DNA from: Flavobacterium psychrolimnae
GTDB lineage: Bacteria; Bacteroidota; Bacteroidia; Flavobacteriales; Flavobacteriaceae
Direction of reading: 5' to 3'
Assembly (NCBI RefSeq): GCF_003312425.1
Contig: NZ_QNUX01000010.1
Span: 1 to 64,000 of the forward strand
DNA: 64,000 nucleotides
Position numbers and translations under genes: made by a program. Under the pieces are notes generated by a model. The model was not told where the DNA came from, searched no databases, and was given only the letters and a program-made list of their open reading frames with translations. Positions 37,332 through 49,111 of this stretch are shown here, one piece after another (the stretch's first letter is position 1; each line of letters opens with the position of its first letter).

Positions 37332-37389
37332 ACCGCTAATTTGCGAATTGTATACTCCAATGCGTTTATACAATTTGTGAATTAGCGGT
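37332..37389. repeat. Long inverted repeat (CCGCTAATT-type hairpin)
   Basis: Arms at 37332-37354 and 37367-37389 pair over about 23 positions with four mismatches, closing with ACCGCTAATT and AATTAGCGGT around a 12-base loop. A T-rich run follows, so it can act as a terminator of the ABC gene. I recall CCGCTAATTTGCG-type sequences as dispersed in Flavobacterium genomes, which should be checked. Confidence 0.7.
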
Positions 37390-37398
37390 TTTATTTTG

Positions 37399-37496
37399 GC
37401 GTAACCCGAAGTCTCGTCCCAAAAGCCGAGACTTCGCGTCGGGCTGTCCGCTGTATCCACGCAAAAAGCGTGGGATGCCGCTTCCATCCCTTACGC
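37399..37496. repeat. Structured repeat element A (three-stem arrangement)
   Basis: About 98 bases, far GC-richer than the surroundings. A closing stem GCGTAA / TTACGC (37399-37404 with 37491-37496) encloses a perfect 10-bp hairpin (CGAAGTCTCG, 37407-37416, with its complement at 37427-37436) and a second hairpin ATCCACGC / GCGTGGGAT (37455-37462 with 37468-37476). The core GCTGTCCGCTGTATCC ... GGATGCCGCTTCCATCCC resembles the element at 49022-49111. The small minus-strand reading frame through it is an artefact. Confidence 0.65.
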
Positions 37497-37614
37497 ACGT
37501 CAGGAAAACCCAAATATAACGTCATAATTTTCACGATAGCAAAAAGAAATGTATTTTTACCAGTGCATATACTAAAAAGTATATTTAATAGTTAATTGAT
37601 AAAAACGTTTTCCA

Positions 37615-49021: not shown

Positions 49022-49111
49022 TTTTTAGGAGCTATTTCCTGCTATTCGTTGCAATCTTTTCCTTTTTAAAGAAAAAAGGAAAAGGATTTCCACTGCTATC
49101 AGGGCTAAAAA
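49022..49111. repeat. Structured repeat element B, related to the element at 37399
   Basis: About 90 bases, closed by TTTTTAG / CTAAAAA (49022-49028 with 49105-49111). An inner hairpin at about 49054-49087 pairs ATC...TTTTCCTTTTT with AAAAAGGAAAAGGAT, with one bulged base. The flanks GCTATTCGTTGCAATC and GGATTTCCACTGCTATC correspond to the core arms of element A. Both elements have the bulge on the same side of the inner stem. Confidence 0.6.

Follow-up and report, generated by a model that had tools for sequence, protein, structure and literature searches.

Flavo-1 dates from 2010, when it was described as a candidate RNA (Weinberg 2010, PMC2864571), and Rfam (RF01705), which files it under Gene; sRNA, models an inner hairpin only. 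In the available portions of the literature (PMC2864571, PMC9723704, PMC9029176 and PMC12306157) it figures as an RNA motif or an sRNA entry without a function, and the accessible part of a transcriptome study of F. psychrophilum describes its matches as lying "indistinctly" sense or antisense to transcribed regions, with many in none (PMC9723704). Titles and opening abstract lines of the literature on Flavo-1 and on Flavobacterium repeats nowhere describe it as dispersed or repeated. The BOX elements of Streptococcus pneumoniae are described, in the portions available of PMC3049150, as short, intergenic, modular and strongly folded repeats with many copies and slow present-day insertion, and REP and REPIN elements are intergenic folded repeats in tens to hundreds of copies, REPs being 20-40 bp long (PMC3733652, likewise in part). 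Here we compare with these systems two elements, A and B, from a 64,000-nt stretch of Flavobacterium psychrolimnae DNA (contig NZ_QNUX01000010.1, hereafter the window). The family of element A is a real, widespread structured repeat, the mechanism of which we infer in part, and element A itself is probably a complete unit of a modular, BOX- or REP-like non-autonomous repeat that is dispersed between genes and retained through recognition of its fold.

The initial annotation placed element A at 37399-37496, which proved to be exactly the span bounded by the closing stem GCGTA/TACGC (Table 1). The closing stem and two hairpins that it described, one with a perfect 10-bp stem, were all located on the minus strand, which is the conserved strand of the element, with the perfect stem in P3 (37427-37436 paired with 37407-37416). 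Its description of a GC-rich element in an AT-rich gap also holds, with a GC fraction of 0.58 compared with 0.29 in the remaining gap and 0.34 in the window, and the fold of 37397-37502 has z scores, relative to shuffles, of -5.37 (plus strand) and -3.15 (minus strand). Against RF01705 the inner hairpin scores 40.5 bits on the minus strand (E 2e-7 in a 401-base search), just below the gathering score of 42; element A is hence a homologue of Flavo-1 below the formal cut-off and not a formal member. Element B, at 83.7 bits for 49031-49110, passes the gathering score, and in both elements all 76 model positions are aligned and the consensus inner hairpin with its symmetric internal loops is present. 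Model R1, built from A-type copies with element A in the training set, gives element A 67.2 bits over all 110 model positions, and over the whole window at E<=1 it finds only A and B (42.2 bits). Model R2 gives element B, also in its training set, 104 bits; taken by itself, element B gains only modestly in fold over shuffles (z -1.46 and -1.98). The ABC ATPase gene is followed directly, at 37332-37389, by a hairpin that has a 23-bp stem and a tail rich in T (fold z -8.34) and is probably the terminator of that gene; by eye, a partly similar hairpin occupies the same place in F. ranwuense (L055).

Table 1. Positions in the window of elements A and B and of the stems of element A
Feature	Position	Strand	Basis or partner
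Element A, complete type II unit (three-way junction)	37394..37499	-	model R1 match
Location of element A: gap flanked by ABC-transporter ATPase gene and TPR-protein gene	37394..37499	-	
Closing stem P1, 5' arm (GCGTA)	37492..37496	-	partner 37399-37403
Closing stem P1, 3' arm (TACGC)	37399..37403	-	partner 37492-37496
Inner hairpin P2, Flavo-1 core with symmetric internal loops and variable tip	37441..37490	-	RF01705 match 37433-37506
Side hairpin P3, length and letters varying among copies	37405..37438	-	sequence; inverted repeat I2
Element B, type I unit (Flavo-1), between polysaccharide-biosynthesis gene and dut	49025..49110	-	RF01705

Units of the type of element B (type I) mostly start with three pyrimidines followed by TAGCCC and end with GCTCC and an A-rich stretch, the third base of which is A in a fraction of 0.92 of 103 right ends, and units of the type of element A (type II) mostly start with TTTGCGTGA and end with TCACGCCCAAA, the two pairing as the closing stem P1. 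Rfam Flavo-1, which comes from the same group of hosts as elements A and B, corresponds to the inner hairpin P2 only of a larger repeat, to which type II adds P1 and P3; both hairpins, P2 and P3, have tips that can be replaced. The published descriptions of Flavo-1, in their accessible portions, mention neither P1 or P3 nor replaceable tips or a type II subfamily. The close likeness of A and B that had been claimed, down to a bulge on the same side, stands as far as kinship is concerned, since both match Flavo-1, and a one-base bulge does lie on the same arm, but element B is without the full third stem. A side hairpin is also seen by eye in some lower-scoring type I copies and, given that similar P2 insertions recur in several copies, the family looks modular, with the A-type copies as a subfamily; in combining many intergenic copies with interchangeable folded modules it is BOX-like. 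In the genome that contains the window (G000), a longer module close to CTCCCGATTTAGAAAAACAAGGCTTTT replaces the simple tip at C22:80334, C23:64640, C17:93420, C1:364232 and C1:448757, and another longer tip module, with GAGCGAC..GAAGCTCC, is found at C23:25480 and C11:8846 (all by eye).

The initial annotation would have dropped its proposal had related genomes held no further copies. Flavo-1 is present in 228 of 250 genomes of the genus, in 25 of 40 genomes in a search of relatives and in 17 of 148 in a draw from the phylum, the genome of the window being included each time. That genome alone has at least 86 matches over the cut-off and at least 106 at E<=10, with 150 of 1089 candidates scored; at E<=10 matches are also given by 10 of 14 control genomes, over the cut-off by none of the 14. 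Among genus genomes in the relatives search the number of matches at E<=1e-5 runs from 0 to at least 87, and at E<=1e-6 there are at least 90 in G130 (one contig), at least 29 in G055 and at least 42 in G233. At E<=1e-4 a type II model made from 17 copies has matches in 21 of the 31 genomes searched, at least 61 of them in G000, and because it scores type I weakly (42.2 bits for element B) these counts are not of type II alone. All copy counts are lower bounds, and absence means none at the depth of that search, because the candidates scored per genome were limited in number (150 in single-genome runs, 89, 18 and 29 in the 40-, 250- and 148-genome searches and 124 with the type II model). The units had been thought to recur in Bacteroidota, mostly unannotated; the many copies agree with the first part, but the inner hairpin was already catalogued as RF01705. 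In viral contigs the type I pattern has no match and the type II pattern one, and the element B sequence used as a query found no match in phage or plasmid records. The nearest named locus found for the window is that of F. ranwuense, with 94% identity in the ATP synthase gamma chain.

Covariation in the paired arms had been the other safeguard of the initial annotation, and two-sided changes are abundant. For type I, 35 copies chosen for score have 99.3% of cells paired, with 47 two-sided cells and a covariation score of 0.487 compared with 0.182 after shuffling, and none of 500 shuffles reached the cells or the score. The 17 type II copies have 94.4% of cells paired and 37 two-sided cells (0/500 shuffles), and in their closing stem all 85 cells are paired, with 9 two-sided and no one-sided changes. 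A further 28 matches from other genomes, which took no part in model building, have 98.9% of cells paired and 57 two-sided cells (0/500 shuffles), with 138 of 139 P1 cells paired, 18 two-sided changes and 1 one-sided; their alignment is fitted to the type II model, and they come from 28 of the 30 type II-model loci (two own-genome loci being omitted), of which L323 looks like type I. Other measures did not beat the controls, namely pairs with a two-sided change (209/500) and pair types (371/500) for type I, and pair types (315/500) for the 17 type II copies. Over the 44 of 45 type II rows that were used, P3 arms fit their own partner better than a swapped one, with a mean run of 4.39 against 3.37 and a highest value of 4.05 in 200 swaps; for element A, whose stem starts further in, the simple counting rule gave only 2 pairs.

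Changes of this kind would also be expected of a mere palindrome, in which template switching copies one arm onto the other and there is no selection on the fold. Template switching would erase internal loops, copying one arm onto the other, and two Flavo-1 copies are now perfect or near-perfect palindromes in which the loops are erased (L058 14074-14159, at the dut site, and G000:C2:115660-115744). These suggest that arm-to-arm copying does occur; P1, moreover, changes on both sides and almost never on one, and is almost without G-U; DNA or arm-to-arm copying would account for this better than would an RNA helix that drifts in the ordinary way. At the dut site, too, the tips differ in all 11 loci compared and still pair. 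Against this, the internal loops are kept in all 35 aligned type I copies, a set chosen for score, and given that only two palindromised copies were seen, the loops otherwise seem to be kept. A strand-symmetric process also predicts equal numbers of G-T and A-C mismatches, whereas the tip stems of 160 usable copies out of 181, from four genomes, have 26 G-T and 5 A-C (p 2e-4), a count in which G130 and G233 entered with the best 30 of 90 and the best 30 of 42 and in which the structure-based search itself slightly favours G-T over A-C. In G000 and G055 alone the figures are 17 and 4 (p 0.007), and in the lower stem of 152 usable copies out of 181 they are 19 and 9, a weak difference (p 0.087). 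Hence the fold of the Flavo-1 strand itself appears to be under selection, as RNA or single-stranded DNA, and we consider a palindrome free of such selection quite unlikely to account for the family.

The history of single copies can be followed where neighboring genes are conserved. The gap of element B was measured in 67 loci, 16 of which carry Flavo-1, all on the strand seen in the window and the palindromic L058 on both. In a four-protein tree (59 loci and the window) the carriers fall mostly in one clade, with several losses and an outlier, L130; the element at this site has thus mostly been inherited down one clade, with losses. Its arms are 0.78-0.82 identical and its flanks 0.35-0.40 (ungapped, 30 nt) in 11 of the 17 carriers, the window included, with L057, L058, L068, L069, L074 and L130 omitted for inserted modules or palindrome conversion. 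Among type I left ends of four genomes the three bases before TAGCCC are TTT in 30 of 98 and CCC in 26 of 98, and element B orthologues change from one of these classes to the other. The pattern at the dut site could reflect constraint in place or homogenisation between copies by gene conversion, the latter being allowed by the class switches.

At the site of element A the gap was measured in 56 loci, with a usual Flavobacterium length near the window of 89-94 bp, and an A-type element is present in L055, L056, L074 and L077, all four in the type II training set. Letters of P1, P2 or P3 differ among these copies with the pairing intact; copies in place can persist long while the letters of their arms change in step. 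Other copies are found at unrelated places, also recently. Mean identity is 0.91 among 12 type II copies selected from G014, where the copies at L340 and L341 are 0.97 identical, with flanking identities of 0.43 and 0.40. It is 0.87 among 8 copies selected from G016, some of which sit inside larger repeated units, and all 20 copies were picked for like lengths. Upstream sequence is common to many copies in both genomes, so the moving unit there may be larger. As no mobilising enzyme, precise empty site or target duplication was found, the word mobile rests on such near-identical copies in unrelated places. At three more insertions, inspected for empty sites in orthologous regions, the flanks had diverged too far for target duplications to be read; L104 has 187 nt, including the element, between two matching stretches that lie 1 nt apart in L090. 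One query of G016 for split copies, as a sign of an autonomous element, gave partial matches only. The earlier suggestion of function or mobility was too broad for one test: dispersal and constraint after insertion speak for it, but no function is proven.

The way in which copies move might be of a kind outside REP/RAYT, MITE and integron systems, with a modular three-way junction whose folded single strand would be recognised via the conserved internal loops by an enzyme common to Flavobacteriia, each copy once inserted becoming a retained chromosome site; we hold this to be possible but doubtful. Integrons themselves offer an attachment site that is folded single-stranded DNA and is moved by the integron integrase. 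The one-strand folding would suit such a site, the end GCCCAAA resembles the R box consensus, and three type II copies of G016 lie within an array of ~1 kb units, but an integron integrase over the cut-off was found in none of 40 genomes, the genome of the window included, the repeat of the G016 array is larger than the element, and no orientation bias is visible along the G130 chromosome (no bias by replication strand among 90 copies in 440-kb bins, with GC skew from 20 stretches). This origin is exceedingly improbable. The array in question (L354 2247-5805, G016:C55) is made of units of ~1-1.3 kb with small ORFs and a long repeat (~510 nt) that contains a type II element in three units, and looks like some kind of cassette array. 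Tyrosine recombinases with frames of 359-610 aa, at G016:C69:6733-7536 and similarly in ten other genomes, fit the integron integrase model better than Xer-like ones do and remain below the cut-off.

Copies of the family lie almost entirely between genes. ORFs of at least 120 aa, called by script and not by a gene finder, overlap no copy among the 90 of G000 and 2 among the 83 from three other genomes; the G000 set is the 106 matches minus the 13 weakest (<=34.5 bits), with one palindrome matched on both strands, giving 92 places, 2 of which are without two neighbors. The neighboring genes of 171 copies are in antisense tandem in 72 cases, sense tandem in 43, divergent in 40 and convergent in 16, sums that omit 8 copies without a neighbor on both sides and 2 overlapping an ORF. 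The gene on the 5' side of the element points away from it in 112 of the 171 and that on the 3' side in 83 (Fisher p 0.002). The promoter motif TANNTTTG, counted within 40-120 nt of the element, faces outward 43 times on one side and 38 on the other, compared with 20 and 18 facing inward.

These counts bear on two readings in which the element would work as a transcript. The first, under which Rfam files Flavo-1, takes the element for an RNA gene or a regulatory RNA element, with each copy transcribed and active as a folded RNA. The two-sided changes together with the excess of G-T over A-C on one strand would be expected of it, as would the conservation at the dut site, and promoter-like patterns pointing in are somewhat commoner on the Flavo-1 strand (13 two-part patterns against 5 on the other strand, p 0.10; TANNTTTG alone 60 against 45, p 0.17). 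However, the orientation of the genes is mixed and without sense bias, nearby TANNTTTG points away more than in, the reported matches in F. psychrophilum are both sense and antisense and often outside transcribed regions (PMC9723704, from the part available), and an sRNA would not usually have ~100 copies with differing tips; we consider this reading unlikely, if less so than the palindrome. The second reading, a transcription terminator or attenuator at gene ends, could call on the stable hairpins and on the 47 of 78 facing stop codons in G000 that lie within 60 nt. Yet no clear T run follows the match on either strand in 181 copies (T makes up 0.35 and 0.20 of the two 6-nt stretches that follow the match, and 0.27 and 0.42 on the opposite strand), convergent gaps are under-represented, at 16 compared with 40 divergent, and element A adjoins the separate strong hairpin with a T-rich tail noted above, which makes a terminator very unlikely. 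By the motif counts and T fractions, a promoter and terminator tail belonging to the repeat itself are not convincing. Neither a general cis-regulatory RNA nor a terminator agrees with the context as a whole.

Mobilisation of the element as a REP by a RAYT (Y1/HUH) transposase was also considered. RAYT-like genes exist in the genus, one of them in G000 (C2:84361-84915), and at 3 of 16 Y1 loci a Flavo-1 over the cut-off lies nearby, at ~0.5 kb (L051), 1.7 kb (L039) and 3 kb (L053). The repeats directly beside 13 RAYT genes are, however, other sequences, as judged by eye over up to 330 nt on each side, and a profile of 11 RAYTs, run on 14 genomes, has no match at E<=1e-3 in 7 that carry Flavo-1, including G130, with its 90 or more copies, and G016, which shows a recent burst. 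This profile is a stronger test than the Y1 domain model (PF01797), which scores the RAYT of G000 itself near the limit and is without a match at E<=1e-3 in G004, G011, G012 and G016. As stated, the proposal fails, with other repeats beside the RAYTs and RAYT missing where Flavo-1 is abundant or multiplying, and such a route is extremely unlikely; the same two differences set the family apart from REP/RAYT systems, which it resembles in its intergenic folded copies. The genus holds several RAYT types with different flanking repeats, and the 184-aa RAYT-like Y1 protein of G000 (L039 4362-4916) is flanked by short repeats of its own, unlike Flavo-1.

Of the described systems, BOX elements would be the best-fitting working analogue, being short, modular, folded, intergenic repeats that are proposed to be moved in trans (PMC3049150, in the part available), and slow present-day insertion counts as a further trait in common. 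The likeness drawn here is one of layout. For BOX, the proposed mover is an IS whose ends resemble it; for the Flavobacterium repeat, a single query for split copies, in G016, turned up partial matches and no such IS. BOX is over-represented between convergent genes, according to a table title in the same paper, where the Flavobacterium repeat is under-represented. On the BOX- and REP-like reading that we favor, copies would be non-autonomous and depend for their spread on an enzyme acting in trans, in line with the proposals made for BOX and REP, and the selected feature would be the fold of one strand, as RNA or single-stranded DNA. Its conserved internal loops may be recognised by a host or mobilising protein, and the tips would be free to change so long as they pair.

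The comparison provides boundaries, a closing stem, a recent burst (G014), orthologous gaps from which copies have been lost and species in which none was detected as tools for work on the family. It also carries a warning that compensatory changes alone are no proof of an RNA gene when the family multiplies as a repeat. With Flavo-1 as the core of a larger modular repeat, the question shifts from the role of an sRNA to what moves the fold and what keeps it.
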